Positions 185 to 41,060 of a DNA stretch of 64,000 nt are shown here, in pieces. The notes under the pieces are model-generated. The model searched no databases, was not told the DNA's origin, and worked only from the letters and a program-made list of their open reading frames with translations. The stretch comes from Branchiostoma lanceolatum (Eukaryota > Chordata > Leptocardii > Amphioxiformes > Branchiostomatidae). The stretch covers positions 4,603,383 to 4,667,382 of the forward strand of contig NC_089732.1 in assembly GCF_035083965.1 (NCBI RefSeq), in the 5' to 3' direction. The stretch's first letter is position 1; each line of letters starts with the position of its first letter. A program made the position numbers and the translations under genes.

Positions 185-296
185 CTCGCAACTTCTTCAC
201 GGTATCTCCAAACCGCCCCTTTAGCCAGCTGTCGGCAGTCATAATCTCAGACGAGATGACCAGGACAACAAGAAGCAACACCAGAGTCGTTTTCAT
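185..296 (-). CDS. Secreted cationic peptide, copy A, first coding exon (partial gene)
   Basis: The exon starts at ATG 296-294, directly after a splice acceptor (ACCACAG then G-ATG), and ends at 185 before a GTTAGA donor in phase 1. It encodes 37 residues: a hydrophobic signal peptide beginning MKTTLVLLLVVLVISSE, then TADS and a short basic peptide, WLKGRFGDTVKKLR. The start is fixed by alignment with copies B, C and D, which share the same acceptor, ATG and signal sequence. The second coding exon must lie left of position 1, so the gene is cut by the window edge. Function is unknown. The mature N-terminal part is cationic and could form an amphipathic helix, as in antimicrobial peptides; this is inference. 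Confidence 0.75.
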
Positions 297-1453
297 CCTG
301 TGGTACAGAAAAAAAACGTGCCTGAAGTTACATGAGGGCCTGTATGGGGGGTCCCGACAACGCTCTACGCTAAATTCGGACGGCCAACTACGTATAACGC
401 TAAATTCAGGACGCCTCTCTACGCTCTACGCTAAATTCTGAAGCTTCCCAATGCATTATGCAGGACTGAAATACGGCCTAACTGTACTACGTCGTGGTGA
501 CACGAAGGTACGATGGAGTTCTCTTCAACTACGACGTGCTTTTGGACGGAGTATGACATGTCTGAAAAATACGGCGTGGCAAAATCCGCAGGCCTGGTAA
601 GGAGACACCTGGGGACCTGCTTAAGAGCAAGAGATTTGTGGAAATTGGTTGGTCAGGAGCAACCTTTATAGATCGTAGCTGAAGATAAAATCGTTTCAGT
701 AGTTTCTTTCAAGATCCTTTGTTCTTTAAAAAGCGTAAATATATGGCCCGATGAGGGCCGTCATTCCACTTATAACATATCCTGCTACTGGAGAGAACTG
801 TAGCTAGAGAAAAAACAAACTTTTATGCAATTGAAGCAGGATCTGAATCTAAATCGGTCAAGCGATATAAACGCCATTTGGCGAAACACACCCTGACACC
901 CTGAAACATGGTATAAATTGTCAAAATTAGGGGGAATATTAAGTTCGCGCTGAAAGTCGGTCCTACGTTTTTACACTGATTCTTTGAACCCAAGATGTGA
1001 CGTGTCTCCGTACTAGTGTGGCTTACCAACACATGGAAAGTGCCAGTTTAGCTGTTACACTTATAGACTAGTGATAACGTGTTTACTTCGTGGTATAGAC
1101 AAATTTCAACTTACCTTGATGTCGAAGACTCGCACCACCAGTGAAACAGAACTGAAGTGTAGTTTGACTGGTGTCCCCGTGGTCCTGTAAATCTTTTTAT
1201 CAGTCGGACTCTCATCTTTATATAGCCCTTCTCTAATGAGAGGTGTCTATTTGCACATATAATAACCTGTATCCGGAATGACGCTTCATTTGGTATGATT
1301 GAAGGACTGCCAAAAGTACCGTTATTAGTAATGGATGAGCCCTGAATAATGTGTACTATTATAGATAATGAAAGGCACAAACTGTTTGTTTTTGCTGAGT
1401 TGGTGCTTCATGCTTTCACTCGTGGTTCGTATTCTTCTATCGGCAGATTTGCC
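297..1453. other. No gene seen
   Basis: No supported exon. Positions 359-440 hold three copies of a short ACGCTAAATTC motif separated by CTCTACG-like spacers. The 5' UTR exon of peptide copy A should lie here by analogy with copies B-D, but I could not place it. Confidence 0.5.
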
Positions 1454-1462
1454 CGTCAGATT

Positions 1463-1662
1463 TACTCTCCAAGCAGAGGAGTGGGTCCGGCAGGTTTTTG
1501 ACGTGTTTTTAGGCGTTTTTGTCGGGCTTTCTACTTTTTGTCATGTTTTTTTTTTTGTCTGGTCAACCCACACGTAAAAAACATGACAAAGAAGAAAGCC
1601 CGACAAAAACGCCTAAAAACACGTCAAAAACCTGCCGGACCCACTACTCTGCTTGGGGAGTA
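1463..1662. mobile_element. Hairpin MITE, TACTCTCCAAGCAGAGG family, with 9-bp TSD
   Basis: The element is nearly a perfect inverted repeat of about 85 bp per arm, with ends TACTCTCC and GGGGAGTA. It is flanked on both sides by the same nine bases, CGTCAGATT (1454-1462 and 1663-1671), which is a clean target-site duplication. Related copies lie at 13066, 61810 and about 63500. Confidence 0.9.
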
Positions 1663-1671
1663 CGTCAGATT

Positions 1672-2692
1672 ATGATCGTTTGTTGTTTCGTAAAGCAAAT
1701 GTAGTCATGTTTGCTCAAATAAATGTGAATGAGACCAAACCGTATATGTCCATCACACTTTGACAGCTATTGCCTGCTAGTGTTGAACTTGTCTGTTTTA
1801 CTTGCTCTTTTTGCTGGCCCTAAACGTAAATATTAGTTATGTCTGCACTTCTCATACATTCTCATGTCATGATGCATTCGAACCTTGGTTTCAAACCCGT
1901 TAGGTACTTCAGAGGTGAAGATACCTGTGCATGCCGAAATCATTTTATGAATTACAGACAATCGATTGTAATATATAGTGCGTGAGAACAGCAGAAATAC
2001 TTCGAAGTTTTGTGCGTGGGGTAAGAAGAGAACAAAAAGTGGGATAAACATAAGATTTTGCTTTCTTTATCAACAGCTGGTGAAATGTTTGAGCAAAATA
2101 TATATGACAATTACTACATTTGCCTCAAGAAATCAGAGAAAACCTTTATATATGCTTATATATATATATACATATTTATATATACTCTGACAGGCAGGCC
2201 TACCAAGATGGATACAAATGATTGGCAAAACCATGAAAAGCAAACTTGGCAAAAATACCCGTGGCTCATTATCTCTGATGATGCCACATTATATATCTCT
2301 CATTTAGGCCATTCTGACTTGATTATATGGGTGACGATTATATGCATGGGTGACATCTGCGCCCATCAAATTTTCCCCTATTGAAGTTTGCTAACAAACT
2401 GTAAATCGTAGAAAGAAGCTGCAAAATCAGCAAAATATGCCGTAAATTGCCAAAAATGGATACTTATGTCATAGATTTCTTTCTTTCCTTTTATCAACTT
2501 TTTTTATCAATTTTGGGGTGCTTAGAAGATGTCATCCATATAATCAAATCAGTATTACCTTACGCGTAAGTAATGACCATAGTTTGTTACGCTATCAATC
2601 ATACCAAATGAAGCGTCATTCCGGATGCAAGTTATCATATGTGCTAATAGCCCCCCCCCCCCCCCCCCCCAATTAAAGAAGGACTATATAAA
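1672..2692. other. No gene seen; AT-rich with TA and poly-C runs
   Basis: AT-rich sequence without a supported exon. A short TA-rich run lies near 2155-2180, and an uninterrupted run of 20 C lies at 2651-2670 just before a SINE. Confidence 0.5.
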
Positions 2693-3108
2693 GGCCGTGT
2701 GGCGTAATGGATAGAACATCCGACTGTCAAACAAGGGGACCCCAGTTCGAACCCGGCCTGCCCCTAGACATGTCTGAACATGCACCCCGACGTTGTGCCC
2801 TTGGGAAAGGCACTCGATTTTCCTCACTTCACTCAGGTGTAAATGAGTACCTAGCTCATCTAGGGTTAGGGATGTCCCTCGGAAAGGACGTTAAATGGAG
2901 GTCCCGTGTTTGGGGAGAGCCACACCCCGCGCACGTAAAAGAACCCACCACACCTTTCGAAAAAGAGTAGGGGTATGCCCCGGTGTGCGATGGTCCAAAC
3001 CTTACAGTCTGGTCCGGGTTGACATCTTGAAAAGGTGATAGTTCACCTGTTATGTCAATCCTTCCACAAATGTGGTAAATCTGAATAAAAACAAATAAAA
3101 TAAAAGGT
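2693..3108 (+). mobile_element. tRNA-derived SINE with A-rich tail
   Basis: The 5' end resembles a tRNA: an A-box-like TGGCGTAATGG followed 35-40 bp later by a canonical B box, GTTCGAACCC. The body contains GGACGTTAAATGGAGGTCCC and CACGTAAAAGAACCC, motifs I recognise from invertebrate SINE bodies. The 3' end is an A/T-rich tail of AAAATAAA-like repeats. The absence of a foldable acceptor stem and the long body argue against a working tRNA gene. Confidence 0.8.
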
Positions 3109-3237
3109 GTGAGTCCGGCTGAACAACATCTACAGGACCACGAGGACATCAGTCGAGCCACAGGTGACTTCACTGATCTTTGGTGCGAGTCTTCGAGTTC
3201 AAGGTAAGTGAAAACTTTGTCTACACGTGCACATACA

Positions 3238-3372
3238 TTAGCCTCAGTTGCAGGCTTTCCCACTAGCGAGTTTTCAACTGATAGGCCTCAAGCAGATACG
3301 GCCCCCCAGCCAAAGAACCTGGACCCGATAAGTTGAAAATCGCTAATGGGAAAGCCTGCAATGGAGGCTAGA
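3238..3372. mobile_element. Hairpin MITE (TAGCCTC ends)
   Basis: The arms read TTGCAGGCTTTCCCACTAGC on the left and the near-complement GCTAATGGGAAAGCCTGCAA on the right. The ends are TTAGCCTC and GGAGGCTA. The termini resemble those of the element at 10133. No convincing target duplication is visible. Confidence 0.75.
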
Positions 3373-3879
3373 CTAAACCATGAAGTAAACACGTTATCAC
3401 TGCTGTTAACAGTGTAACAGGCACATTCCATGTATTGGTCAGTGACTAGTCAGCCACACTTAGTAGTTTGGAGACAGCGGAAAGTTACTTTCTGACATCA
3501 AACGAGTTGTATTTTCCCATTTGGAACGAAGTTATTCTTAGCCATCCTGGGGTCCAAATACAGTGTTAGAATGCACCCCTTACTTATGACGCTCATATCG
3601 ATGTTAAAGTTGACCGACATCTCAGTCCCACATTCACATATAGTCTGGCAGTGTTTTGGAGGAAGAACGTAAAAAAAGCAAACTAGCAATCACTCACAAG
3701 AACTGGAAATTCATATTATCTGGCCTATGTCTATTATGGACTTCTTGGCCTGGCTGGACACCCAATTCTTCAGTCTCTTCTTTTCCTTTCAATGAGCTAA
3801 GTGTAAAGACTTATACAGTAAATTTGACTTTAGTTAGTAAAGTTAAAGTCCTCCCACACGGGTAGCGCCCATCCCCGTT

Positions 3880-4110
3880 TCATAGCCCTGGGCCACACTG
3901 TGGTGCAATCACTGCAGCAGGGGGCTAGTCTACTGCCAGTGGAGAGTGTTTAACTTCGATACTGTTTCGTCTTTGGTATGACTCAATGCGCCTCTTATCC
4001 AGACGAGTCCTACCCGGGCGCGAACTCAGGCCTTCTGGCTCCTCATAATTTGAACCAGATGTGGTAAGTGACATAAGTGCAGACCACTACACCACAGGGA
4101 CATGCCTCAA
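3880..4110 (-). mobile_element. tRNA-derived SINE, antisense
   Basis: Read on the minus strand, it begins CCCTGTGGTGTAGTGGTCTG (A-box-like) and carries a B-box-like GAGTTCGCGCCCGGG, followed by a non-tRNA body. It lies just upstream of the broken peptide copy E. Confidence 0.6.
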
Positions 4111-4176
4111 ATTTGACTTTGTCATATCAGAAAACTAGCGGTGTTATGGTTGGCTCCATAAGGAATTACAATTTTA

Positions 4177-4217
4177 ACATTTTCCCTGCTGCCTAACTCT
4201 GTAACCAATAGAGAATG
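4177..4217. repeat. Piece of TTAA hairpin element
   Basis: The segment AACATTTTCCCTGCTGCCTAA matches the end of the TTAA-flanked hairpin found after the Kelch stop codons and at about 14940. It sits where the start of peptide copy E should be. Confidence 0.5.
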
Positions 4218-4258
4218 GGGTTCCAAACGGCGACATCAGTGCACTAAATGATACTGTT

Positions 4259-4564
4259 CTGGTCATCTCGTTACAGATCATGACTGCCGAAAGCCATTTC
4301 AGGATCGGCAGGGGCATGGGTAAGATAAAACCATCTTTTCTTTCTTTTGAAATTTCATCTGCTTTTCCAAGTGAAAAGAAAAGCATGACACGGATAGAAG
4401 CGTCAGTGATAGCAACACTAGTGTTGAAATAACATCGTTTCCGTTAAGACCTTAGGGGTGACCTGAAGGAGTTGTTGGCCCGTCGGCAGGCCCGAGCTGT
4501 ACTCCGTGAGGCGGCCAAGGAGCTGGAGAACTGGGATGTGGACATGGTGGAGGAAGTGGAATGA
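4259..4564 (+). pseudogene. Secreted-peptide family copy E, inverted and 5'-damaged
   Basis: Two exon-like pieces match the family on the opposite strand. The first (to 4319) reads LVISLQIMTAESHFRIGRGM and ends at a perfect GTAAGA donor in phase 1. The second starts at 4449 after a TTAAG acceptor and runs in frame to TGA at 4562-4564, including DLKELLARRQARA and an acidic tail, DVDMVEEVE. The usual ATG and hydrophobic start are missing: the upstream frame is closed at 4202 and a TTAA-hairpin fragment occupies that position. Phase, exon order and the LKxLLARRQA core all agree with copies B-D. I call it a pseudogene, though a start from another upstream exon cannot be excluded. The acidic tail differs strongly from the basic tails of the other copies. 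Confidence 0.6.
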
Positions 4565-4959
4565 CGAAGAGCTAGGGACGAATAAGATATATGCTCATAT
4601 TCTAATCTTGTTATGATCGACTTAAACAAGAGTCTTGAGACACTGTCACACAAGCATGGCCTCCTGGACAAATTCCTACACAATTCCTAGAATTCTTGTA
4701 AACTGCACACAATACTATAGTCTATACCATTAGGCGTCGACGTCGATCGCCAAAATGTAGGTACTTATGTGTAGGATTTTGTAGACCACGATCCCTTGCA
4801 TAACTTCACTGTTTCACATGTTCACAGACACCAGGCCCGGGCTGAACTCAGAGGGTCAGGGAGCTGCAGTCGGAGAACCGGGATGGATGAAAATCAAGAA
4901 AACTATGTTGAATTGATTTATCATGATAAATTGAACCCAACGAACTATTTACGGAGTAT

Positions 4960-5440
4960 CTTAATATGCATTCACCGCGAATCGGCTTCTCAGTTCAGTT
5001 TCAAGGTTGTATTTGCAGCTTTCCATCACATGATGCCAGTACAGTCCTATTCAAGTCCGAATAAAAGAGTGTGGCGAAGCAAGTACATCCTATGTAATGT
5101 CCTTGGGCGACGCTAAGCGGATCCATACTTTGTTGTTGCAGTACAGAAATTCACCGGCTACATTTGATGTCATATACATGTATGAGTCGCACTGACTCGC
5201 ACATATTTATATAAAGGAGTGTTTGAATTCATGTTTTTGTCCTTTGTGACTAATAGCGTAATAGCATAGCTAGACTTAAAACTAAGATTTTAATCCAAAA
5301 TAGCGACAGCTGATAATAAGCCTATTATCAAAGGTAGCGTTACAGATGTCTGCACAAAATGACAGCTTGACAGCGTACAGGTCACGTGGTGGCCATGTGG
5401 TCACTCCGACTGCCCTGCAAAGACAAAAGCACAACAGAGT
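4960..5440. repeat. Segmental duplication block, left copy
   Basis: Shares long stretches with 8010-8375 in the same orientation, including CAGTTCAGTTTCAAGGTTGT and GCGGATCCATACTTTGTTG, and ends near a shared GCTTGACAGCGTACAGGTCA. This is the 3' flank of peptide copy B; the right copy is the 3' flank of copy C. Confidence 0.85.
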
Positions 5441-5533
5441 ATGTACCGCGATGATGTATCCAATGACACAAATCTTCACAAACGAACTGCCAACTGGTAT
5501 AACTCTTACCTTTTGCTTATTGCCAGCGTCTAG

Positions 5534-5763
5534 CTGGTGTGTTACGCCGAATGGCGGTTATACCGGCTATATAGATACAGATACATATAACGTTACAGAT
5601 ATGCAACAAAACTGCCAAAGGCGTACGGAACAAGTGAGTCACATATCTGATTGGAGATTAACACTAGTAATGCCCTCGGCAAGGTTATGTAGATAACAAA
5701 GCAGGGAATTTTAATTCTGTATCTATATAGCCGGTATAACTGCCCTTCGGTGTAGCACACCAG
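5534..5763. mobile_element. Hairpin MITE (CTGGTGTGTTAC ends)
   Basis: The left arm contains GCGGTTATACCGGCTATATA and the right arm its near-complement TATATAGCCGGTATAACTGC. The outer ends are CTGGTGTG and CACACCAG. Solitary relatives appear near 27680 and 60740. Confidence 0.75.
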
Positions 5764-5893
5764 GCAAGCGGCGCGGCAGCAGCTGGTTATATTACACCGA
5801 ACGACCTGTCACGTCTAAACCTCGCATATCTAACTGCATGCATAGTTTAAAGCTAACTTATGAGTGTTCTTTTTTTTTCTACCTCTTTATTAT

Positions 5894-6450
5894 TCATTTT
5901 CTTCCAATTGGAGGTGCGACCACCTCGCGGCGTCCGTTCTCAGCCTGGCGGCGGGTCAGCAGCGCCTTCAGCTTCTGAGCCGAGACGGGAGACACGCCTC
6001 TACGGGCTGGGGGAAAACAAGGACAAATGTTATGTACTTCTAATGAGTAAGTGAAGTCTTCTTTCACTGCTGTCCAAAATCCGAAGCAAAGAAACAAAGA
6101 TTGCTTCATCTTTCCTAGCCTGGATGCCACTGACTGTTTCCAGGACCAACACAGGCCAGCTCCTATGCTCCAGGGCGAACATGCCACCAAGAAAATTTTG
6201 CCACAGCCCTCTGGCTCATTTCCTGATGGGGGGTGTGGAAAATTTTCTATAGTAGCATGTTGGCTCTGGGGCCGAGGAGTTGTCCTGCGTTGGCCATGGA
6301 AACGGTCTGGCATTCAGGCTGCGTCTTACCTCGCTCCTTCATGATACGTCCAACCGGTTTGCGGCTGCCGCCGGTAGCGAAGCTGTCGGCAGTCATCATC
6401 GCTGACGAGATGACCAGGACGACAAGAAGCAGCCCCAGGGTCGGTTTCAT
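5894..6450 (-). CDS. Secreted cationic peptide precursor, copy B
   Basis: Two coding exons: 6450-6330 and 6006-5894, joined by a phase-1 intron with a GTAAGA donor and a CCCCCAG acceptor, giving 77 residues. Residues 1-23 are a signal peptide (MKPTLGLLLVVLVISSAM, then MTADS). A variable basic stretch follows (FATGGSRKPVGRIMKER), then a dibasic site, a helix-prone core (SAQKLKALLTRRQAENGRR) and a tail EVVAPPIGRK before TGA. There are no cysteines. Pairs of basic residues, and Gly-Arg-Lys at the very end, would suit prohormone-convertase cleavage and C-terminal amidation. The high positive charge would also suit an antimicrobial peptide. AATAAA begins 2 nt after the stop codon. ATG is preceded by a conserved acceptor, so a non-coding first exon is likely (ending at 7031). 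I do not recognise the family. Confidence 0.85.
6116..6320. mobile_element. Hairpin MITE in intron of peptide copy B
   Basis: The ends are TAGCCTGGATGCCACTGACT and a near-inverse GGTCTGGCATTCAGGCT. The right end stops about 9 bp inside the intron, next to the copy-B splice donor. A copy occupies the same site in copy C (9112-9325) and a decayed one in copy A, so insertion probably predates the duplications. Confidence 0.75.
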
Positions 6451-7030
6451 CCTGTGGTGCAGAAACAAAACATCGACGTGCCCTGAAGTTACAGATTAAA
6501 TCAGTGGTGACATTCATCGTACGCTTTCTTCTGTTGTCTTTTGATTTTCAGGGACGTGTACAAAACCGATTACAAGCTACAGGGTGGCGGACAGGGAGTA
6601 GCGCCCTTGCCCTTTGAGAGGCTAAAGCCAAAACATTCTCAAAACAAAACACAGCAACCACCCCGTCCACAAGTACCTCAAACCCCCACCGTGCCAGAGC
6701 CTACAACTTAATGAAGTTGCGCACGAGACAAAGAAGCTTTCACTACAAGCTCAAAGAGTCTTTTTTTTCATGACACGTCTTCAACTGTCCCAAGAATGCC
6801 CTCAATTTTACCACCGAAGACCTATCGTTTCTACAAGACTAACGCTCAGACTGATTTGATTTAGACGTCTTAGCATTCTGAGTGAGCGTCACTGTTAATT
6901 CTAGCAACAGCCGTGCAATTTTTCAAGGACATACGAATATAATTCAAAGGGAGGACCTAGACTTCAATATAAGTCTACTTTACTAATAAGTAGAAATATA
7001 ACATACAGAAGGGATTGTGACAAAACATAC

Positions 7031-7255
7031 CTGTTGAAAACCTGTGGTATACGTGCGTACCTTATCCTGTAGAATGGCCAGAATGACTCAGCAACGAGCT
7101 AAGAATGTTGATGTTCCCCTTAAGTTGGTCCTTGAAACACAACCTCTCCAAGGCTCTGTGACTTATCCTGTATAGAATTACCAAAATGACTCAGCCTTGA
7201 AGCAACGACCTCAGAATGTAGATGTTCCAGTTTAGATAGTCCTTGAAACAAATCC
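7031..7255 (-). promoter_or_regulatory. Putative 5' UTR exon and promoter of peptide copy B
   Basis: A TCAACAG/GTATGT splice donor at 7031 is conserved in sequence context with copies C (9974) and D (12325). Upstream, a block of about 95 bp containing CTTATCCTGTA, AATGACTCAGC and GATGTTCC is present twice in tandem, at about 7060-7140 and 7155-7250. Copies C and D have only one block. No cDNA is available to confirm the exon. Confidence 0.5.
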
Positions 7256-7478
7256 TCTCGCTGTTGAGGTAACCTCCACCAGGCCTTACTACGGGGTACG
7301 GATCGCAAAACCTTTTAATAATTGGCCAATAGAGTCAATCCACAGGAAGGGTAACATTTTCCCCTGCAATGGAAATTGTGGCCAAACTCTCCTGGCAAGT
7401 ATTCTCCCATTGGCCGGCGCAGTCAGTCTGATAGAGACTACTGTTGAGGCTCTATGGAGCTCTTGGGGCACGAGAAGT

Positions 7479-7496
7479 GGGGGGGGGGGGGGGGGG
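7479..7496. repeat. Poly-G run
   Basis: Eighteen consecutive G bases in the upstream flank of peptide copy B. Confidence 0.95.
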
Positions 7497-8009
7497 CTGC
7501 TAGAAGTGTTCTTTAGATCAGGCTGCATTTGGGTTATCCTGGTTTTACGCAATCTCTCCCTGACAGGACTGACTGTCCCTCCTCCTCACCGGTGAGACGT
7601 ATGGGCAGGCCGCTAGGAGCGCGATTTAGTCAGCCTACACTGCGCTACAGTTTGGTTATCATCAACATCAATATCTACGTTGTGTCCTTGGGAAAGGAAC
7701 CGCCTTGGTTAAACTGTTGGTAGGTAAAACGTGGAGTTGCTAGCCTGGATGCCAGGCTGTTTCCAGAGCCTACACAGGCCAACTCGGCTATAGGGCCAAT
7801 ATTCCCCCAAGAAATTCTACAACAGCCCCCCCCCCCCATAGTTGGACCCTGTACGATATATATTGTAGAAATAGGGGGTCAAGCATCTAGGCTTGGAAGT
7901 GGCCAGGTAAATTTGAATATGTAAGCAGTTAAGTTAATATCAATATTGAGAAAGAAGACATCAGAAAACATCAATCTAAATGATACTTGATCCAATAATG
8001 CACAAGAAA

Positions 8010-8375
8010 ACAAACTTGGCTTGTCAGTTCAGTTTCAAGGTTGTATTTGCAGCTTTCCATCCCATGATGCCAGTACAATACAGACTGCTCCAGGATCTAC
8101 CAAATACTAGTATTCAAATCCTAACCATAAACGATTGTGGCGAAGCTAAGCGGATCCATACTTTGTTGTTGCAGTACAGACATTCACCTACATCTGATGT
8201 CATATATGAGTCGCACATATTTCTATAAACGAGTGTTTGAATGAATCGGTCTTTTTGTCTTTTGCGACTACTTTTTAAGGTAATGTTACAGGTGTCTACA
8301 CAAAATGAGAGCTTGACAGCGTACAGGTCACGTGATGGTCACTCCGACTGTCCTGCAAAGACACAGAGACAACAA
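8010..8375. repeat. Segmental duplication block, right copy
   Basis: Matches 4960-5440 in direct orientation with scattered substitutions and small deletions. It marks one end of the duplication that produced copies B and C. The other end is shown by a shared GGTGAGACGTATGGGCAGGC block at about 7591 and 10420. Confidence 0.85.
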
Positions 8376-8497
8376 ACCAAGAACAGATGTATTCAATGGC
8401 CCAAGTTTCCACAAACGGCCTTGGGCGATATATTAACAAAGCAGGGAGTTGGGGATGATTTTTTTAAAATTTCCTTTTATCATTCATTTTTACCACT

Positions 8498-9458
8498 TCA
8501 TTTTCTTGGTCTTCCTCCGCCTCCTCGTTTTCCAGGAGGCCGGACCACCTCACGACGTCCGTTCTCAGCCTGACGGCGGGCCAGCAGCGCCTTCAGCTTC
8601 TGAGCCGAGACGGGAGACACTCCTCTACGGGCTGGGGGGAAACAAATCATGGCAGGTCAATAGACACGCCCAGGGCTGAGACACTAGCCTCTACCACGGG
8701 CTCCGTGGATCCCCTGAAAATAGTAGAATTTGGCCGAATAGAGTGAATAGTATGCCAAGGGAGTCGGCTACGGAGATAGTCCAACAGGCGACTCCGACTT
8801 TCTACTTTTTCCAGCGATCAGCGGAGCCTGGTAGAGGATACTGAGACACGTCAGCAAGAACTAATGTTATGTAGTTGTAATGGATAAGTGAAATCTTCCT
8901 TCGCGCTGTCCAAAGTCCAAATTCCAAGGTGAAGCAATAAAGATTCATAACGGGAGAAATTTAAACACGTCAACGGACTGAGGTCAATCAATGACAGTTC
9001 GGTAGACACGCCAGCAGTGATTTTAATGAATAAGAAAAATCTTATTTATTTCAATTCACTGCTGTCCAACACAAAATCCAAAGCAAAGCAAAAATATGGC
9101 TCCATCTAAACTAGCCTGGATGCCAGACTGTTTCCAGGGCCTACACAGGCCAACTTCTAGGCTACAGGGCGAACATGCCACCAAGAAAATTTTGCCACCA
9201 AGAAAATTTTGCCACCAAGAAAATTTCCTGTTTGGGGCCGTGGCAAATTTTCTATAGTATCATGTTGGCCCTGGAGCCGGGGAGCTGTCCTGCGTTTGCC
9301 ATGGAAACGGTCTGGCATTCAGGCTGCGTCCAACCTCGCTCCTTGATTATACGTCCAACATGACGTCCGTGGCTGCCGCCAGCAGTTAAGCTGTCGGCAG
9401 TCATCATCTCAGACGAGATGACCAGGACGACAAGAAGCAGCAGCACGGCAGGTTTCAT
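8498..9458 (-). CDS. Secreted cationic peptide precursor, copy C
   Basis: Coding exons 9458-9335 and 8631-8498 give 85 residues in the same phase-1 arrangement as copy B. The signal region reads MKPAVLLLLVVLVISSEM and is followed by TADS. The variable segment is LTAGGSHGRHVGRIIKER, the core SAQKLKALLARRQAENGRR, and the tail EVVRPPGKRGGGGRPRK. Gly-Lys-Arg after EVVRPP is a textbook amidation and cleavage signal in neuropeptide precursors. The intron donor is GTTGGA, weaker than the GTAAGA of copy B, so splicing efficiency is open to question. The copy lies in the duplicated block with B, about 3 kb away. Confidence 0.8.
9112..9325. mobile_element. Hairpin MITE in intron of peptide copy C
   Basis: Homologous to the element at 6116-6320, with the ends TAGCCTGGATGCCAGACTG and GGTCTGGCATTCAGGCT. 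Internally, a 17-18 bp unit around CCACCAAGAAAATTTTG is repeated three times. Confidence 0.75.
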
Positions 9459-9973
9459 CCTGTGGTAACGTTACAGAAAATAAAACATCAACGTGCCTAG
9501 AGTTACAGCTTATCATTTTACAGTGACATTTGTCGTACGATGTCTTCCGTCGTCGTTTGATTTTCAGGGACGTATGGTTTTGATGTACAGAAGCTGTATT
9601 TAGAAATATGTATACAAAAAGCAGAACATTTTCACAAAGAACATGTATTTAGGTTTATCTTTTTAAGTACATGCTTCAAGCATGTATAATGTTAGTGAGC
9701 AGTCACAACAGAGCAGAGACTACAGCTAGCGACCGCACATACCCCGGAGCAAAAAGCAAGGCAAGCTGAATTAAAGGTCTTAGTATTCTAAGCTCGAGTG
9801 AGCGACAATGTTAATTCTGGCGGCAGCCATGCATTTTTGAAAGGACATCCGAATACTAGTACTATTCAAAGGTAAGATCTAGCCTTCAACATGACACGTC
9901 CACTGTCTTTACCAATACAAAAGGGAAAGCATACAGAAGGGAAAATGTGTACGTGTTTATGAAAAAAACAAAC

Positions 9974-10080
9974 CTGTTGACAAACTGTGGTGTACGTGCG
10001 TACCTTATACTGTAGAATGGCCAGAGTGACTCAACGAGTTAAGAACGTTGATGTCCCAGTTTAGTTAGCCCTTGGGGCAT
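9974..10080 (-). promoter_or_regulatory. Putative 5' UTR exon of peptide copy C
   Basis: Ends at a TCAACAG/GTTTGT donor and contains the same AGAATGGCCAGA and GTTGATGTCCCAG stretches as the copy-B leader. Transcription has not been tested. Confidence 0.4.
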
Positions 10081-10132
10081 GGCCAATGGGAAGGCTGATG
10101 GAAGTGTCATTTAGATCAGGCTGAAGTTTGGT

Positions 10133-10343
10133 TTAGCCTCCATAGCGGGCTCTCTGGGCCTTTTCTGGCTTATGATACACTTTTTGCTGGTGGCTTCTTT
10201 TTGGACAGGGTCGTTTGTGCCGCCGGCCCGTAACCATTTGGCCCGTGTGTGCCTGCTGCACAAACGACCCAGTACAAAAAGAAGTCATCAGCAAAAAGTG
10301 TATTATAAGCCACAAAAGGCCCAGAGAGCCTGCTATGGAGGCT
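10133..10343. mobile_element. Hairpin MITE with 9-bp TSD, absent from the duplicated site
   Basis: The arms are long inverted repeats beginning TTAGCCTCCATAGC and ending GCTATGGAGGCT. AAGTTTGGT lies on both sides (10124-10132 and 10344-10352). The homologous site near 7516-7545, in the duplicate of this region, lacks the element and so serves as an empty site. Confidence 0.9.
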
Positions 10344-11240
10344 AAGTTTGGTAACAATTAGCCTGTTTTTACACAATCTCTCGCTGGCGGGGACACACTG
10401 GCCCCCTCGTCCTCGCCGGTGAGACGTATGGGCAGGCCGCTAGGAGCGTGATTTAGTCAGCTAGGTTACAATTTGTGGGCTATCATCTACATTAATATTT
10501 CCCATATAGAGGTCTTTCTCCAGTACAGTTTGCCATTCTTTCTGCGTTTCAGGTCCTCTGGCAAATTTTGCCTTCAAGTTTCTTTAGTTAGATAAGGATG
10601 TCACATTATCTATAGCAAAAATGTGAGGAAAATGACTTGTCGAAAAGAAGGACAACACAACCACAGCAGTTTGATTGAACACCCACTTTTGTATAATAAA
10701 AAAAAAATATTATTGCATTGAACGGAGGTGAATCACAGTAGCATTTAATTTCTTCATAAGTGGTGAGGAAATCTGTCAAAATCAATGGATGTTTTACTTT
10801 GGTAAATGACAATCGCACTGTAACAACTAGGAACTGATTAGGATCATGTAGGTTCTAGAATATATTTTCTGATCACTCGCAGTCACAGTTGGCAATTACA
10901 AGTATAATTCCGAAATGAAATATAAATTGGAGTCCCTGTATAGATGTTGTGTCCTTGGGAAAGGCGCCTCCTTGGTTATACCGTTGGTCAGTTAAGCGTT
11001 AGTTGCTAGCCTGGATGCCAGACTGTTTCCAGAGCCTACATAGGCCAACCCCTCGTCTCTATGACCCCAAAGAAATTCTAAGTTAGAGCCTTAAAATTGT
11101 TTATATCAGTGCCTGGACCGGTGCAATGTTATGTAGGTAAATTAAACAAAGTAATGAGTTGAGGCATCTTGAAACAAAAAGACCAAGTAGAAAGATTTTG
11201 TTTGTTTGCTTTTTGTATTTTTTTTTTACCAGTTTGTCAT

Positions 11241-11859
11241 TCATTTTCCTCCACCGAATCCTCCGCCTCTCCTTGTGCTTCCCTGCGGATTCTCCTCATC
11301 ACGGCGTTCAGCAGCCTCGGCCAGACGGCGGGCCAACAGCGCCTTCAGCATCTGAGCCACAGCGGGAGACACGTCTTTGTGGGCTGAGGGAGAACAATAG
11401 CACTTCAATTGATGAATGAATGAATGAAGACCTTTGTTGTACACATATACCTACTGGGTTCAGTACAGGCCACAACAACAACAACAAACAGTTTACAAAT
11501 ACTTAAATACAATGCTTCTACATACAATGACAAACCAGAACTAGTCTAATAGATACATTGATTTGGCTTCTTGCTTCTTAGTAATTAATGATGTATATAT
11601 AGGTACAAATGTGATTTACAATCAAGGGTGTGCCTAAAGGCATTAGAAATATGAACTTAATTTTCTGTGTTACTAAGGTTCAATAGACACGTCGGCAATG
11701 ACTAGCAATGTGTAGGCAATGGAAGCAGAATTCAGTCTGCGTCTAACCTCGCTGCTTCAGAGCTCCAGGCGGACGTCCACCATTATAGAAGCTGTCGGCA
11801 GTCATCATCTCAGACGAGATGACCAGGACGACAAGAAGCAACACCAGGGTCGGTTTCAT
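11241..11859 (-). CDS. Secreted cationic peptide precursor, copy D
   Basis: Coding exons 11859-11748 and 11383-11241 give 84 residues, again joined in phase 1 (GTTAGA donor, CCCTCAG acceptor). After the shared signal region (MKPTLVLLLVVLVISSEM) and TADS, the variable segment is FYNGGRPPGALKQR. The core differs from B and C (SPAVAQMLKALLARRLAEAA). The tail is partly acidic (RRDEENPQGSTRR) and ends GGGFGGGK. It is the most diverged intact copy and has no MITE in its intron. Glycine-rich tails appear in both C and D. Function is unknown. Confidence 0.8.
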
Positions 11860-11883: not shown

Positions 11884-12444
11884 CGACGTGCCTGAGGTTA
11901 TGGCAGAGCTTATGGTAGTGACATTTGTCGTACGATATCGTCCGTCGTTGTTTGATTTTAGCAACGCTGCTACAGAACCTACTGTCGATAAAGATCTACG
12001 GCGACTTTCACGGCAACTGCCTCTAGAATACCCTCAATCTGCGGTCCTAAGGCTATTTTCGTAAGAGAGGCCGGCCCTTACAAAGTTGATATGAAGGCAG
12101 GTGACGATGTAACTCTAGTGACAACTGGTGTAATTTTTAACCGCCATTTTGGACGCAACACCCAGATCACCTTTGGTAGGTTCTAGCTCTTAACTACCAA
12201 GTACCATTATTAATTACCAAAGGTATCGGAGGCATTATTCTGAGAGGTAGAATTTACATCGAAATTAAACAAACTTTGGAAGTTATGATGAGAAGGGAGA
12301 CATGCTTAAAACTAAAACACAAACCTGTTGACGAGCTGTGTCATGTCATTCGTGAAGAAGGGCGCCGGCAAGCTAAAAATGTGGATGTTCCGGTTTGGTT
12401 GGTCTGTGAGACATAGCGTGTCACGTATAGGTCAGGTACCAGTA
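11884..12444. promoter_or_regulatory. 5' leader region of peptide copy D
   Basis: A donor-like GTCAACAG/GTTTGT at 12325 and a downstream AATGTGGATGTTCCGGTT block match the leader exons of copies B and C. The rest shows nothing recognisable. Confidence 0.4.
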
Positions 12445-13065: not shown

Positions 13066-13210
13066 TACTCTCCAGCAGATGTTGGTGGAGAAGACTGTGA
13101 CCTTTTTATCATATGCCCCATTTTCTGTCAGCACTCTCGTAGGTGGGCAGAAAACGGGGGATATAATAAAAAGGTCACAATCTTCTCCACCAATCTCTGC
13201 TTGGGGAGTA
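13066..13210. mobile_element. Hairpin MITE in the BRIX1 3' UTR
   Basis: The ends are TACTCTCC and GGGGAGTA, the same family as 1463. The arms contain GTGACCTTTTTATCATATGC and its near-inverse. It begins about 22 bp beyond the BRIX1 stop codon, so it would be transcribed as a long hairpin unless polyadenylation occurs first. No clear TSD is visible. Confidence 0.8.
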
Positions 13211-13232
13211 GTTTTTTCTATCATTATTCTAA

Positions 13233-16200
13233 TCAGTTCTTTTTTCTTTTCCTCTTGTTCTTCTTCTGAGAAGGTTTCTCATCTTCGGAGTCAGCCTCGT
13301 CCCTGGGCGTGGCAAACACCTCGTCAGTCGGGTCGACCGGGTACGTCTCATCCGTCTTTCTCTCCTGGAGCGCCTTCTTGGCCAGGACGCGGTTTGTGTA
13401 CTTGTCCCCCTTCAGCCTCCTCATTGCACGACGAATCTGTAAATCAAGCAAATTCATATAAAGGCAAAGGTAGTTAAAGCCTTTTTTAAGGCCGTAAGGA
13501 CAGCGGGTTGTTATCCACCGTGTCTAGGGCACGGTATTGGAAGGCGGAGCCAGTCCCCTTCCTTACACTGCTTTTTACCTCCCCAACCGAAGTCAGGTAC
13601 CCATTTTACACTGCGCAGTAGGATCAGAGTATAATGTATGAGATAGTATGTACCTTGTTACACACATTTTCAAGGAAAGATTTGAGTTTCCGCCAGTCTT
13701 CATCTTGCTCTCTTGCTAGATTTTAATTAAAAATGGCCCATAACCAAGAAAAGGAACAGCCTTATAGTGGAACATACAACAGTGTGCTTAACATATAGTA
13801 AGAATGGATGACTTTACCTCATTAGGAGACTTATAGTGAGGGTTCTGGTACAGGGTGGGTCCTCCAAAGCTGCCGCCAAACATTCGGATGGGGTTGAGCA
13901 CGAATCTGGGGCCGACTTCTGCCAGGGAACCTTTCTCATCAACAATCTAAAACAAAAAAGAACAAAAAATTATAATTCATCTAGCAAACTGCTCTTAAGC
14001 CCCCACTAGCTTAACAGCATGCCACATGAGGCTTTGTCAGGAGCAGTAAAAAAAGGCAAAAGAAGGAAGAATCATGTTAGAAATCTCCTGATCATTTTCC
14101 CCAGTTGACAGCTAGGATCATCTTATTCCTGAGGCTTCCCCATACACAGGATAAAAGGCTTCATACTATCATATGCTCAGTTCTTATCTTAATCTACACC
14201 ATTGATTATTTGATTGTTCTTATCTTTCGTTATCATATTCTTTGTATTACTTTAGTATATCATTTATTGATTATAAGTCATTTTGATTAGCGTAGAGGAG
14301 GAGGGCCTAGTATAGGTTATATATGTTATATACGATTTTTACCTCCTCCTGTTTCTATTTATTGTTTATTTCATGATGTATTGTGTATTTTCTTGTTGTG
14401 CAAATAAAATGATTAATTAAGAATTAAAGTAACCATGTACAGTATTGAACATTTAAACTTTGTGCAATAAACAGTGACTGTTGTCAAACTGACTCCTGAC
14501 CTGATAGTTGCGGAACCATATTCTATCATCCACCACAGAGAAAGTGTAGACATGGTCCACAAACGGCTGGCTCCGGGGGTGGTGGTAGGGCGTGCTGAAG
14601 GTCTGACACAAAAACAACAAATTTAGTCAAATATACTTGCAAATGGATAATTGATTAGCCTGCCTAAATCACACTTCTAGCAGTCCTCCCTTTGGGAAGG
14701 GCTCCATAAAGTTTGTGTTGGACAGACTACTAGTAAGCAGCTGATATATCTTCAATAAAGGGGCAATCACAATTTTTGTCATTATTAATTCACTGCAAGG
14801 ATGTAACAAAACGACTAACAACAAGGACCCACCACAACATTTTCTGAAACAAGACAGCTGAGTTATGAATTACACATTCACAGTCATTAGAATATCATTA
14901 ATGTGTTTAATCTTTATCACTCTGAAGTAGCCGTTTGACTACCAATTTTCTATTGGTTACTGGGTTAGGCAGCAGGGAGAAGGTTAAAGAATTGTATGTG
15001 ACAGAGACTTAAGCCTTATGTGTTTTTCCTCAATCTTAGACTTAATTTTTGTGTGTTATGGATTACCTGTGTGAACAGTTCCTTCACAAGACTCCAGTGG
15101 GGATGTTCATCAAAACTCTGCAAAAAAGGAGAAAAAAATACTTCTTTCACATGGACACAATGGGAAAAGTATGGAGGTCTATTACTAGATGGAAGCTCAT
15201 CTGTGTTGGTAGCAATCATTAGCATGAATACATTTAGTTGCTGTACAACCTAACAGTACAAAGTAGAACCAGTCATCACTGAAACATTGGCAGGTAAATC
15301 CCTTTGCTTGTGCAACAAAGACCTGCATTGTCTATAGATAGCTGTTGTGTAACAGAATATTACATACATGTGTACTACCAGGGTTTTTTGTAAAGAGGTT
15401 AACAAGGGCACTGCACCCCCATGCCCAACCATATGCCCCCTTACCCTGGAGAGCCGATTCTCTGGCAAACAGAAAATTCTGATTGACCAGAGATACTACT
15501 AGGTCACTTGTGGCCACAGTCTTCAATTTTGACCTGTAATTTCCACCCTCAAGAATGCCTCTAATCCACCAAAACTCCACACCATGGACCATTCCCCAGC
15601 TCGGTCACTCTGCTTTTTTGCAATTCCCCCATCCAATTTTTTTCTAGAAAAAAGCGCTAGCTCTGTACTACTTCTATTACTAGTAAAAATACTACATAAT
15701 TAAATCTGACATCTTAGTTTTGTACCTTGTCAAATGTGACAATGGGTCTGGCACCCTTCAGACAGTTTCCTGTCAACTTGAGTTCTCCCATTGTGTGAAC
15801 TGGAAAAAAACAAATAGACATTCATATGTTGGAGAAATACAAAAAAAAGATAAACCGGTACAAAACAATTCTCAAAACATTGGAAATACATGCTTACTAC
15901 AAAGATAACAAATGTACAAAATAACACAATGGTACAAACTATAGGGAGAGATTCTGAAACAATACAAAACATTACTCATCCACTGACCATTTTCCACCAG
16001 AAATTTCACACAGGGGCCATGGGGCACATTTGACACCCTGCAAGAAAAACATCAATTCTTTATTATCAACGTAACACCATAAAGGCACAAATAAAGCAAA
16101 ATCTCTTTTTGTTTTATCATAGTCATAAATATTACTATTGATGCTCACCACATGTACAGGTCCATCTTCTTCCTGGCCTCCAGGTAGACACATTTGTTGC

Positions 16201-19200
16201 AGTTCTTCATCTCACACATCTATGGAAGAAAGTAGTAGTATCTATTATTTGATTATACTGCTGCTAGGGTCCCTGATGCAGGGGTGGGCAGCAGTCGGCC
16301 AGTCTTCACACCGCACTTCCAAACGGCTTTGTCCAGCGGGTTAACGTTCATAAGTCTGCACACCTTAAATAAATGTCCTTCCTGACACACTCCAACCAAG
16401 GTTTCCTAGGTCTATCATTACCTCTGTTGGCCGGCAACTGCAATTTTGTGATGGTGTCCATGCAGCCACTGGCTCGTTCAACTTCAATGAAGGAATAGCT
16501 TTCCTAACCTCTTCATCTACAACCTTCTTCAGGGTATACTTATTTTAGCATCACTCATTTCCTATCAGCAAAAAATTAACAGACAAAAGGATAAAGTAGA
16601 ATGATTATACTGAGAAAACTGTTACCTCATTGATGAGTTGGATGTTTTCCTTTTTGTGCATCTTGCTTTCTGAAATATGACAAGGTTAAATAATCATGAG
16701 ACATACATTTACTTATTTTATTTATTTATCTATTCATTAAACTTCACAGAATGAAATCTGAGAGGTGTTGGCAACAGGATCAGATTTAGGTAAATCACAG
16801 CTACATGTAGTTACAGGAAAGCTATAGAAAAGATCACTAAGTTCAACCACAACAAAGACTGTGTTTAAGACAACTATACAGTCAAATCTGTACCAGCGAC
16901 CACCTACTAGTAGATCCATACAGACCACCCGGCCATTGTGGTAACTTTTGGGTGGCTCTTTTAGGTTTTTTCCATTTGAACCAAGTGTTAAATATCCGAT
17001 CCTAGCCATCTGTCTACTATTTGAGTTGTGATCACAGAAAAGTTTGATTTTGTGATGTATACTGAAAGGAGAGTTCTTACCTGCTTTAGCATGTGGCATG
17101 AGCATCTTTAGGTCGTTCATGAGATGTCTGGCTCGGTACGAAACACCGCGGGAACAGAACACCAGACAACGCTGCTTATTCGTCCACTTGCCCTGGAGGT
17201 ATTGAAAAGCAACAGCAAGTTCACATGGGTGATGAGAAGACTGCTGGATACATCTGAGTCTCTTTACTCAAATTGTTTAATTCATGATTTTGGGGCTTGT
17301 TTTCTTATTTTTTAATTTTGAACATGTACGACACTACCACCAAACAAAATGTTGAATCTAAAATGCACATTCAGAGTACAAGAAATACATTGAAAAACCT
17401 CACCCCGTGCAAAGGTGGAGGATCTTCTCTTGTGACTGGTGCTGGAGGCTCCTGTTCTTCCTCTTCCGAGTCATCATCTTCAGACTCCTCTGGATTCTCT
17501 TCAGGAGTTTCTGTAGGTTTGGGTAGCGGTGCGCCTTCTCTCCGCATCTGCTTCTTCAACTTCTTCTGCACCTTTCTTCGTTCATTGCGTCGCTGGAAAG
17601 AGAGAAGTACTGTTGTGACTACTGCTCAAGTGTCTACTAGTAAAGCTGTCCTGCACTAGTGTGGGAGAGTTGTGTTGAATGGAGCTATATCTTAGAAAAA
17701 TCATTTTAATTGTTTCATGTACATGTGCGATAAGGTTTCTTGCATATCTTTCCTTCAGAAATTATGCTATCCTATAAGAAAGTCTAAGGAATATACCTTT
17801 ATACCTTTATACCTTTATACCATCTTCAGTCGAGGAAGGCAGCGCCTGTTGTGGACTGATCTATTCGCTTCCGCCGTGTTCGTGCATTAGCTCCTTCCAA
17901 TGTCGATCTAGTTGATTCTTGAACTGGTTAACTGTTTCACTGGAGACTACACTCTCTGGTAGGGAGTTCCAAGTGTTTATTGTCCTTGCACTAAACACAT
18001 GTGCTCTTGTTCTTGATTTGGCCAAGGGTACTTTAAGCTTGAGGCTGTGCCCTCTTGTTACTGCGTTCCCTGCACTTTCAAAGAAAATCTCTGGCTGTAT
18101 TCTCTCCCTCCCAGTAACAATCTTGAAGACTTGTATCATATCGCCCCTCTTTCGTCTGTACTGGAGAGACGGCAAGCGGAGCCTCTTTAACCTCTCACTG
18201 TATGGCAGGTCTCTCAGCCCTTGCACAAGCTTGGTTGCTCTGCCCTGTACTTTCTCCAGTCTCTCTTGATCTAGGGCAAAGTGAGGTCCCCAAATGCAGT
18301 TACCATACTCGAGGTGGGGTCGTACCATAGTTTTGAAGAGGATGGGGATTGTGAGTTCATTTAAGTTGTAGAAAGTTCTCTTAATAAGACCCAGCAGTTG
18401 ATTACCCTTGTTGGCCGCCCTAGCAGCATGTGCATGAAAGGTAAGCTGGTTATCAATGGATACACCAAGGTCCTTCTCTTCTACTGTCTCTTCAATGATC
18501 TGCCCCCCTAAGGTGTACGTGGCTCTTGGGTTCGTCCTCCCCAGGTGCAATACCTTGCATTTACCGACGTTGAAGTGTAGCTGCCAGTCCTGTGACCATT
18601 CCCCCACTGTCATGAGATCCTGTTGCAAGGTCTCTTGGCCACTGACATGTTTAACACTCTCATACAGTTTACTATCATCGGCGAAAATCCTGACTGCACT
18701 AGTGACTGACTCAGGCAGGTCATTTATGTAGATCACAAAGAGAATAGGACCGAGAACGCTCCCCTGTGGTATACCGCTCTTCACGTCTTGCCATGTTGAG
18801 AATTGTCCATTTACTACCACCCTTTGCTTCCTCTGGGCTAAAAAGTCCTTTATCCAGTCTCTCAAGCTACCCCCAACTCCGTACCGCTCTAGTTTGCGGA
18901 GGAGCCTTGCATGCGGGACTGTATCGAAGGCTTTGCGAAAGTCTAGGTAGATGACGTCAATGGGTTCCCCCTCCTGCAGTAACTTAGTCCACTCTTCCAT
19001 TACTACAAGTAACTGTGTCATGCATGACCTGCCAGGGACGAAACCATGCTGGGCATCGGTGAAGTATTCGTTCTGTAGCATGTGCTCTACCAGCTTGTCT
19101 CTAATGATTGATTCCATAGCCTTCCCAACTACCGACGTTAGACTCACTGGTCTATAATTGCCCGGTGATGTTTTGTTTCCCTTCTTAAAAATGGGTGTTA

Positions 19201-21327: not shown

Positions 21328-21913
21328 CTTGGGGTCAACAGAGGTCAACCGTAATCTCGCGTGACTTTCAGTTCCGAACGAGACTTCGACGAGATCACAA
21401 CAAAACACGGAAGAATACCTGATCTGAAAAGTGAGTTGTTATTTTGCCGTTTTTTGAGGATGTTTGATAAATCTATGCAAATGTATTACACAGTTTGTAG
21501 CTCAGAACTATAAATTGTATGCTTAAGAGGTAAAGGACGTTGTTAGATTGTGACAGCGATTGTATTTTGGCGGGAAATCGCCCAAGTTTCGGTGAGAGAA
21601 AATCGACAGCCTTCTGCCCCCCTCCCACGTTTTCAACGATGAGCACTAAAAACGAAGATGACACAAAATCACCAGGGTCATTTTTCTGTTCACGTTTACA
21701 GCATCCCAAAGTGCTATGTGGTCTTTACATTTTGTACTTTCTACGAGACCTCGAACCTGACGTAATATTACTGTAATATCCATTATCCATAAGAAGGAAC
21801 TTGACCAAATATTCGATTACTCATCACTCATGAGTCATGGTTTGTAATAATCATGAGCACTGAAAAAAACGCAAGCTGTGAAGGTAATCCTTCAAATTGA
21901 TAAGGTCTCTGGT
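21328..21913. promoter_or_regulatory. BRIX1 5' flank
   Basis: Presumed promoter and 5' UTR of BRIX1, upstream of its ATG (21327-21325) and ending at element Y. No TATA box or other element could be identified with confidence. The ATG was chosen because it is followed by a second in-frame ATG, then a Lys-rich stretch, and is shortly preceded by a stop-free but non-conserved frame. Confidence 0.4.
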
Positions 21914-22871
21914 GCAAAAGTACCCGGGTCACCGGTTCCTTAGTAATCCCTCGGTGTCCAGCACCGAAGGTGCCTTCATCGCTAGACTTCCAGTGATGAA
22001 GTTTTGCCATCTGTGGGTGTCCAGCAATGAGGCGACTTCATTACTGGAAATCCCTGAATTATCACTGGAAACCGAGAGATGAGACTACCTGCGGGGCTAT
22101 ATCTATCACAAAAGCATGATCAACAATAAAGATGATACCTCTACACAAGGACATTATACTATATAATGTCCTTGATCTACAGTTGAGTCTTGTATTTATT
22201 CAGATTGTAACATGTAAGTCAGAGTGACTCATAGTTCAAACTAAGATAGATAGTGGAGCTGCGACATCATATGTGGTACAAATGTAATACAAACTGTCAA
22301 ACTAGTGAATAGAATATATCCAGATGCTTGAATTAATAATTGTTCGTGTCACACAAAAGTACCGTACACTGACACATCAGTAGTACGCCGTAACGGTATC
22401 GACTCAAAATGCACTCAAAATATTGTCTAATAGTTAGCACTGGAACATTCCAGTGATAATAGGATGTGATCACTGGAAGGCCACTAACGAAACAATGTCA
22501 TCACTCGGCTTCCAGCACTAGAGAGTCACTCATCACTGGTAAGTCCATCGCGGAACCCGTGACCGCGGGACTTTCGTTACTGGTTATCTAGCGACGAGTG
22601 ACCTCAGTACTGGGGTGCCGAGTGACGAGCGGAGATCGTCACTAGAAGCCGAGTGATGAGCGGAGTTCATTTCTGGAAACCGAGCACCGAGGCAAGATTC
22701 AGTGCTGGAATTCCAGCACCGAGGGGGCTTCATTACTGGAATAAAGCCGTTCGTCACTGGATTGCTAGTGATGAACTTTCTTTGGTGCTGGACGTCCAGC
22801 GACGACGCCATTTTGTTCACGCGTTCATTACTCGGCGCCCAGTGAGGGACCGGTGACCCGGGTACCTTTGC
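21914..22871. mobile_element. Mutator-like non-autonomous element Y, 9-bp TSD
   Basis: The inverted ends are GCAAAAGTACCCGGGTCACC and GGTGACCCGGGTACCTTTGC. GTCTCTGGT is duplicated at 21905-21913 and 22872-22880. The plan is the same as element X: motif-dense flanks and a motif-poor centre. Scaffold segments such as ACTGGAATAAAGCCGTTC and TCGGCTTCCAG are shared with X, but the repeated motif is CCAGTGATGA or TCACTGG instead of the GTAC-centred form. No ORF of note. Confidence 0.9.
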
Positions 22872-23194: not shown

Positions 23195-23554
23195 GTGCCA
23201 TTGGGTGAAAAGCAAAACAGTTGAAATGTCCCGTCTGCGAGTTGTATGCTGTTTTCTCTGAATTACCTTGACCCCTCAAATGACGGGGATCTACTGTAGT
23301 TAAAATATATGTGCTGTGCGTTAATCATATGTCATCAATCAATGCCATCCAATATGACTGCCGTTTTCTTAATCAGTGGTGATGTCACATGCTATCAAAG
23401 ATAATTAGATTAGACCTATGATCAATACATTGACATCTAGTTCTTGAATATCAGACTGTATATATTTCTAACCATGTTGCGTTTTGTCCACCCCATCCTC
23501 GCATGCTTCCATGGATTTTTAGTGTTCTATTTTTTCAAAGCAAGGCGGAGAGCC

Positions 23555-40779: not shown

Positions 40780-41060
40780 GACGACCTGAAAAAGAGAAAT
40801 AAATTATATGTCGTTTGGTCAAAAAATGCCAGAGTTGAATCAATTTGAAGATTTGGCAGGAGGAGAAGAAGAACATGAACAAAAACAATATATTTCACTC
40901 CTTCCATATCCCTGGTATGGGGACTGGGGAGTGAAATATAATCATAACAAAAATCAAGAAGGACTAAAATGTTAACTAGCTAATAAATACCTACTATAAT
41001 GTTACCTCATATGCCTAAGTAAGGGTACATTCAATTTTAGAATATTACATGTTAGATGTT

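Follow-up and report, generated by a model that had tools for sequence, protein, structure and literature searches.

The question raised by a 64-kb stretch of the genome of the lancelet Branchiostoma lanceolatum (contig NC_089732.1, forward-strand positions 4,603,383 to 4,667,382; here called the window, in whose coordinates signal exons, second exons and all other features are given) is what role is served by a cluster of small, cysteine-free precursor genes near its start: host defence, hormonal signalling, some other secreted function, or none. The cluster consists of three complete genes of two coding exons each (B, C and D, all on the minus strand), a half-gene (A) and a degenerate copy (E), set in DNA of 42% G+C and eukaryotic look. 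Sequence features support the reading of secreted-peptide genes arranged in tandem, and the role that we hold most probable, at roughly 0.4, is that of a host-defence (barrier) peptide family, placed a little ahead of a hormone-like role from which it is hard to separate. In B and C a loose spacer and a cut site precede a conserved core; D has neither the cut site nor measurable constraint.

The initial annotation counted five related two-exon genes, of which the duplicated signal exons are real and only B, C and D are complete: the second exon of A would fall left of base 1, beyond the window edge, so that A is readable only as a first coding exon, and E is degenerate. The signal exon is near-identical in the four minus-strand copies (A, B, C and D), each opening ATGAAA. 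With the signal of D as tblastn query, A, B and C were recovered at E values of 3e-9, 1e-9 and 3e-9, and exon 2 of C retrieved B at 5e-16 and D at 3e-7, to be set against a lowest E of 0.018 when four queries were run on 20 shuffled windows; no additional copy of the family stood out by tblastn in the 64-kb window. In all four copies the first coding exon ends in phase 1 with a GT donor (GTAAGA, GTTGGA or GTTAGA), and exon 2, found in B, C and D, has a pyrimidine-rich acceptor ending in AG, a phase-1 junction and a stop. Splice sites, phase and stop are intact in each of the three complete copies, whose coding exons, with that of A, are the following.

185-296, minus strand: first coding exon of copy A, encoding signal peptide MKTTLVLLLVVLVISSEIMTADS and spacer WLKGRFGDTVKKLR; donor G/GTTAGA, phase 1.
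5894-6006, minus strand: exon 2 of copy B, (A)RRGVSPVSAQKLKALLTRRQAENGRREVVAPPIGRK and stop, from alignment and splice sites.
6330-6450, minus strand: first coding exon of copy B, signal peptide and spacer FATGGSRKPVGRIMKER; donor G/GTAAGA.
8498-8631, minus strand: exon 2 of copy C, (A)RRGVSPVSAQKLKALLARRQAENGRREVVRPPGKRGGGGRPRK and stop, from alignment and splice sites; predicted single helix over residues 6-29 (AlphaFold2).
9335-9458, minus strand: first coding exon of copy C, signal peptide and spacer LTAGGSHGRHVGRIIKER; donor G/GTTGGA.
11241-11383, minus strand: exon 2 of copy D, (A)HKDVSPAVAQMLKALLARRLAEAAERRDEENPQGSTRRGGGFGGGK and stop, without RARR and without a Gly-dibasic motif, from alignment and splice sites.
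11748-11859, minus strand: first coding exon of copy D, signal peptide and spacer FYNGGRPPGALKQR; donor G/GTTAGA.

Spliced, the predicted products are 77 (B), 85 (C) and 84 (D) residues long and, as had been proposed, none contains a cysteine. Each opens on a signal-like stretch of 23 residues, delimited by eye and ending in TADS, after which a spacer runs to the end of the exon for 14 (A), 17 (B), 18 (C), 14 (D) or 8 (E) residues, in agreement with the variable segment of 8-18 residues described earlier; its net charge in A-D is +3 to +4. The junction codon G/CC (Ala) completes in B and C the sequence R-A-R-R, a furin-type site, where D has RAHK. In both copies the variable spacer lies N-terminal to RARR and the conserved core C-terminal to it, and the variable segment, standing before RARR, is therefore read as a propeptide spacer outside the putative mature peptide. 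Within the core, the positions shown in VSPxxAQxLKALLxRRxAE are invariant across B, C and D in a protein alignment; the core string given at the outset, LKALLxRRQAENGRR, holds in B and C only, D reading LKALLARRLAEAAERR and E LKELLARRQARAVLR. PPGKR in C and a terminal GRK in B, also singled out then, are both present. Net charge after the signal amounts to +12 (B), +15 (C) and +6 (D), and the mature peptides predicted by cutting after RARR and trimming at Gly-basic-basic would be a 31-mer of net +4 and hydrophobic fraction 0.39 from B and a 30-mer of net +5 and 0.37 from C. For exon 2 of C, AlphaFold2 with three sequences predicts one helix over residues 6-29 at a mean predicted local distance difference test score (pLDDT) of 70, the block values being 80 and 89 within the first 20 residues and dropping to 62 or less thereafter; the helix has a net charge of +4 in C, and the corresponding peptide of D one of only +1 to +2.

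This anatomy could also belong to secreted peptides of a different function, such as mucus or reproductive peptides, in which the whole basic precursor would work uncleaved. Such a reading suits D, which without RARR still has the exon organisation and some of the core, and suits the basic nature of both spacers and post-signal parts in B, C and D; the retention of RARR in B and C, with a conserved core behind it, points the other way, and we consider it unlikely.

Synonymous and nonsynonymous change (rates dS and dN) were examined in 16 comparisons, with one-sided, uncorrected Fisher P values. Over 30 codons the core of B and C differs by four synonymous changes and one nonsynonymous (dN 0.016, dS 0.171; P 0.023, uncorrected for the 16 comparisons), the first 22 codons alone giving P 0.22, and exon 2 of this pair is 92% identical over 111 nt, compared with 80% over 525 columns that run from the upstream region through exon 1 into the intron, most of which they cover, and 82% over 68 nt of intron. 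Against D the core yields dN 0.40 and dS 0.49 (B) and dN 0.38 and dS 0.53 (C), ratios of 0.80 and 0.72, with no measurable constraint and no distinction from neutral change. The signal of B and C differs by two synonymous and five nonsynonymous changes, and its dN/dS lies at about 0.3-0.5 for five of the six pairs and at 0.9 for B-C, no value being significant; that the signal could be called "nearly invariant" is due mainly to the youth of the copies. The only comparison in which dN exceeds dS is the B-C spacer (0.27 versus 0.22). The argument that a conserved signal joined to a fast-changing secreted part marks defence peptides survives in part: spacer and C-terminal tail do change fast, but B and C agree closely in the putative mature core.

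Upstream of the coding exons, an acceptor-like CCACAG stands one base 5' of the ATG in all four minus-strand copies, and its position directly before the ATG makes a 5' leader exon likely. A TATA box and a predicted leader can be read for A, and remnants of both for E; the predicted leader common to B, C and D differs from that of A.

1115-1225, minus strand: TATA box of copy A (CTATATAAA, 1217-1225) and predicted 5' leader exon from about 1190 to 1115, donor GTAAGT, read from the sequence and from repeats shared with E.
7031-7140, minus strand: predicted 5' leader exon of copy B, 3' end at 7031, 5' end approximate; block 91% identical with C.
9974-10080, minus strand: predicted 5' leader exon of copy C, 3' end at 9974, 5' end approximate; block 91% identical with B.
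12325-12420, minus strand: predicted 5' leader exon of copy D, 3' end at 12325, 5' end approximate.

In B (6117-6320) and C (9113-9325) the intron that follows exon 1 begins close to a self-inverted stretch, with another at 2-156 in A, so that this insertion probably predates the duplication of these copies. C has an insertion immediately 5' of its exon 2. Foldback palindromes with arms of 54-95 nt and 89-93% identity occur at 1456-1669, 10133-10345 and 13074-13201.

Copy E, on the plus strand, is recognised by other means. Its retained half of the signal (VLVISLQIMTAES) scores a tblastn E of 0.046 and its retained part of the core 0.038-0.051 against C, so that by protein alone neither piece beats the shuffled windows (best 0.018). 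Its homology is accepted because it shares DNA repeats with A, at 85% over 40 nt in exon 1 and, in the leader blocks, at 76% (50 nt) and 86% (37 nt), and because the pieces stand in the right order on one strand.

2684-2692, plus strand: TATA box of copy E, CTATATAAA, separated from the leader exon by an inserted element; read from the sequence.
2697-3110, plus strand: insert resembling a short interspersed nuclear element (SINE) between TATA box and leader of copy E; tRNA-like head and bounds by eye.
3112-3203, plus strand: leader exon remnant of copy E, homologous to the leader of A through inverted repeats of 76% and 86%; donor GTAAGT retained, 5' end by eye.
4256-4319, plus strand: signal exon remnant of copy E, beginning VLVISLQIMTAES, signal start lost and donor GTAAGA retained; identified by DNA repeats and order.
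4451-4564, plus strand: exon 2 remnant of copy E, LRGDLKELLARRQARAVLREAAKELENWDVDMVEEVE and stop, with a tail in a frame differing from that of C; identified by alignment and tblastn.

The gap between TATA box and leader measures about 410 bases and by eye resembles a tRNA-derived SINE, in which ARAGORN and Rfam recognise nothing. E reads the shared tail anchor CTGGARAAC in frame 0 and C reads it in frame 1, a difference that accounts for part of the "variable tails" noted initially: the tail in B, C and D ends in Gly, Arg and Lys; the matching DNA of E reads as an acidic tail. An alternative frame of E could start at a downstream ATG, without a signal. Farther 3', at 4820-4920 on the plus strand, a second piece resembling the tail of exon 2 was seen by eye; its protein match (4826-4852) is not significant by tblastn (E 3.7).

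The state of E bears on whether the cluster functions at all, since its members could be functionless recent duplicates whose open frames survive through youth. A degenerate E with its promoter split by an insertion, a homologous tail whose DNA is in one frame in E and in another in C, and a dN/dS of the core of D against B and C that is statistically indistinguishable from neutrality would all suit that explanation; the intact splice sites, phase and stop of all complete copies argue against it, as does an excess of synonymous changes, seen in the core of B and C and in the 10 codons at which E and C match best (P 0.005, in a stretch picked for its similarity). On this evidence we regard it as improbable.

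Under the host-defence reading, the cluster would be a prepropeptide gene family of recent tandem origin, perhaps confined to one lineage, each planned as a 5' leader exon, an exon with the 23-residue signal and the variable basic spacer, and an exon opening just before the cleavage site. The signal peptide would be cleaved after TA or TADS, and in B and C a furin-type protease would cut after RARR at the exon junction and release a cysteine-free basic peptide some 30 residues long, with a net charge of +4 to +5, which would fold as a single helix and act outside the cell, most likely by binding or disturbing microbial surfaces; the loss of the cut site in D and the decay of E would represent birth-and-death evolution. 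Of this scheme the exons, their phase, RARR, the variability of the spacer and the conservation of the core between B and C are seen in the sequence, and transcription, secretion, cleavage, the predicted helix and the role are inferred. This role draws support from the strong positive charge and from the tandem copies, with one degenerate (E) and one diverged (D) member, and the putative mature peptides of B and C are short, basic, cysteine-free and, by the prediction made on C, helical, as expected of linear cationic antimicrobials. The nearest point of reference is BjAMP1 of Branchiostoma japonicum, which in the accessible portion of its description has 97 residues with a signal of 24, an anionic pro-region and a mature peptide that contains two cysteines; the antimicrobial mBjAMP1 is freed by cleavage at basic residues as a short basic product said to turn helical (PMC4683396). 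As far as that portion goes, the window genes share with it a small secreted precursor, a signal of similar length (24 against 23 residues here, by eye), predicted cleavage at basic residues and a putative mature peptide of comparable charge and hydrophobic fraction (+6 and 0.38, against +4 to +5 and 0.37-0.42 for B and C), and differ in lacking cysteine and in the basic spacer, with no resemblance to the mature peptide by eye (PMC4683396).

Several observations weigh against host defence. The spacer is basic, unlike the anionic pro-region given for BjAMP1 in the accessible text (PMC4683396); between B and C conservation falls on the core and not on the spacer; and D is without RARR, its helix carrying a net charge of only +1. 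A weak point is that the kappa-B consensus GGGRNWYYCC has two sites in the whole window, none near the minus-strand leaders and one inside the SINE-like insert of E. The amphipathicity of the helix does not rise above shuffles (P 0.51 for C, 0.60 for B and 0.80 for D); mBjAMP1 itself is not above shuffles (P 0.35), so amphipathicity says nothing either way and was dropped as an argument against antimicrobials.

A possible alternative, and one to be taken seriously, is that these are regulatory peptide precursors (hormone or neuropeptide), composed of a signal, a disposable spacer, a furin-type site and a helical ligand of about 30 residues for a G-protein-coupled receptor, perhaps with a C-terminal amide in B (..PPI-NH2) and C (..RPP-NH2). 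The genes would then have the layout of PTH-type genes, and the copies could be identical to the PTH-like peptides reported from amphioxus. The variable spacer ahead of the cleavage site and the conserved core behind it in B and C fit this proposal, as do the Gly-dibasic motifs of the same two copies, in which the initial annotation had seen a neuropeptide precursor. That fit is partial: D lacks RARR, the Gly-dibasic motif is not conserved among the copies, being absent from D and E, and homology between the motifs of B and C is not a given, for they occupy different places in the DNA alignment though they line up in the protein alignment. Both the host-defence and the neuropeptide alternatives raised at the start still stand.

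Likeness to known hormones was gauged with a panel of 17 peptides, in which the best scores fell to class B1: GHRH led for C (shuffle P 0.010) and B (0.013) and PACAP for D (0.0025), with urocortin 1 second for C, B and D (0.018, 0.058 and 0.055). When 12 class B1 peptides were used, 8 of 983 unrelated 30-mers from window proteins (overlapping windows of five open reading frames, four of them paralogues) matched the score of C. The class B1 lead means little because 12 of the 17 panel peptides were of that class; 26 of the 983 30-mers scored as high as B and 55 as high as D, and pattern-preserving shuffles attained the class B1 score in 2% (C), 7% (B), 36% (D) and 59% (E) of cases, from which class B1 likeness emerges as nominal and for C only. 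TIP39 gave shuffle P values of 0.15 (C), 0.16 (B) and 0.19 (D), PTH and PTHrP lay outside the best seven of the 17 for all three, and no Pfam hormone model was listed to E 10, a range in which HMMER filters drop most weak matches.

PTH/TIP39 peptides are helical, and hormones of the GHRH/PACAP and CRF/urocortin groups are short, helical and sometimes amidated. The window peptides show no significant similarity to PTH, PTHrP or TIP39, and the core gives only weak alignments to GHRH/PACAP and CRF/urocortin; to our knowledge they lack the PTH hallmark residues, which weighs against a hormonal role, and we know of no counterpart in them of the N-terminal activation segment of GHRH/PACAP/CRF. Two PTH-like peptides of B. 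floridae have reportedly been described and shown to activate a receptor. In the accessible portions of two sources, PTH genes carry the prepro part in one exon and the mature peptide in the next, the classic gene having three exons, and the coding exons of B, C and D are split likewise, the leader exon of the window genes being predicted only (PMC4354418, PMC3009671). PTH-like peptides are also reported from amphioxus in the accessible part of one of them (PMC4354418), and the amphioxus CRH-like gene is, in what could be consulted of its source, a single gene, unlike the tandem family here (PMC7406891). That the cluster represents an unnamed chordate peptide-hormone system, with tandem furin-processed helical ligands in a PTH/TIP39-like layout, perhaps from a much-diverged class B1 lineage kept and multiplied in lancelets, seems very improbable.

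The failure to match the peptides to a known family was borne out for the libraries searched (Pfam, NCBIfam, PDB sequences, prokaryote genomes and viral contigs), a limited claim with animal genomes, transcriptomes or RNA-seq and UniProt outside the search. Matches of the three products to Pfam and NCBIfam up to E 10 were at chance level (chorismate synthase at 0.071 in Pfam and 0.027 in NCBIfam; a glycine-rich protein at 0.37), as were those among PDB sequences, namely three engineered proteins (0.039, 0.086 and 0.28, the stretch ankyrin-repeat-like by eye) and two DNA-binding proteins (0.47 and 0.65). A pattern search of prokaryote genomes returned 591 stretches, none a relative. One of 24 stretches from viral contigs passed, with 20 residues matched, and was treated as chance because no open reading frame of at least 30 residues covers the match in that frame. 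Six sequence strings of the family had no occurrence in the literature searched, and the papers on BjAMP1 and on PTH/CRH among the matches listed name no peptides like these in their accessible portions.

Beyond the cluster lie genes and repeats of other kinds. A Brix-domain gene (BRIX1-like) adjoins it at 13210-21330 on the minus strand (bounds by eye); one of its three pieces, joined by eye, matches PF04427 (E 2e-16), the other two being without a match. Within its apparent intron a 724-residue open frame (17861-20035, minus strand) matches RVT_1 at E 7e-35 and resembles a long interspersed nuclear element. Four BTB-BACK-Kelch genes with uninterrupted frames are clustered at 34867-36591, 39073-40803 and 43764-45611 on the minus strand and, inverted, at 48053-49849 on the plus strand; these four and the reverse transcriptase make up the five matches obtained with Pfam on eight open reading frames. 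These Brix, reverse-transcriptase and BTB-BACK-Kelch neighbours have no bearing on peptide function. A further gene at 23441-27580 (plus strand), whose three open reading frames have no Pfam match singly, is by eye a candidate, unconfirmed, of PAIP1/MIF4G type. Two blocks, 20100-21060 and 21900-22860 (bounds by eye), are rich in CAGTACTGG-like and CACTGGA-like words, have tandem units of 30-31 bases and by eye look like two copies of one element, and a satellite at 33854-34371 has 20 copies of units of about 25 bases.

The case shows how a spacer that precedes a protease site completed by splicing can pass for a rapidly evolving mature peptide. Were the products hormones, the cluster would provide secreted ligands encoded by genes of hormone-like layout; should they serve in host defence, the reading favoured here, they would form a new set of effectors of innate immunity at the chordate base.

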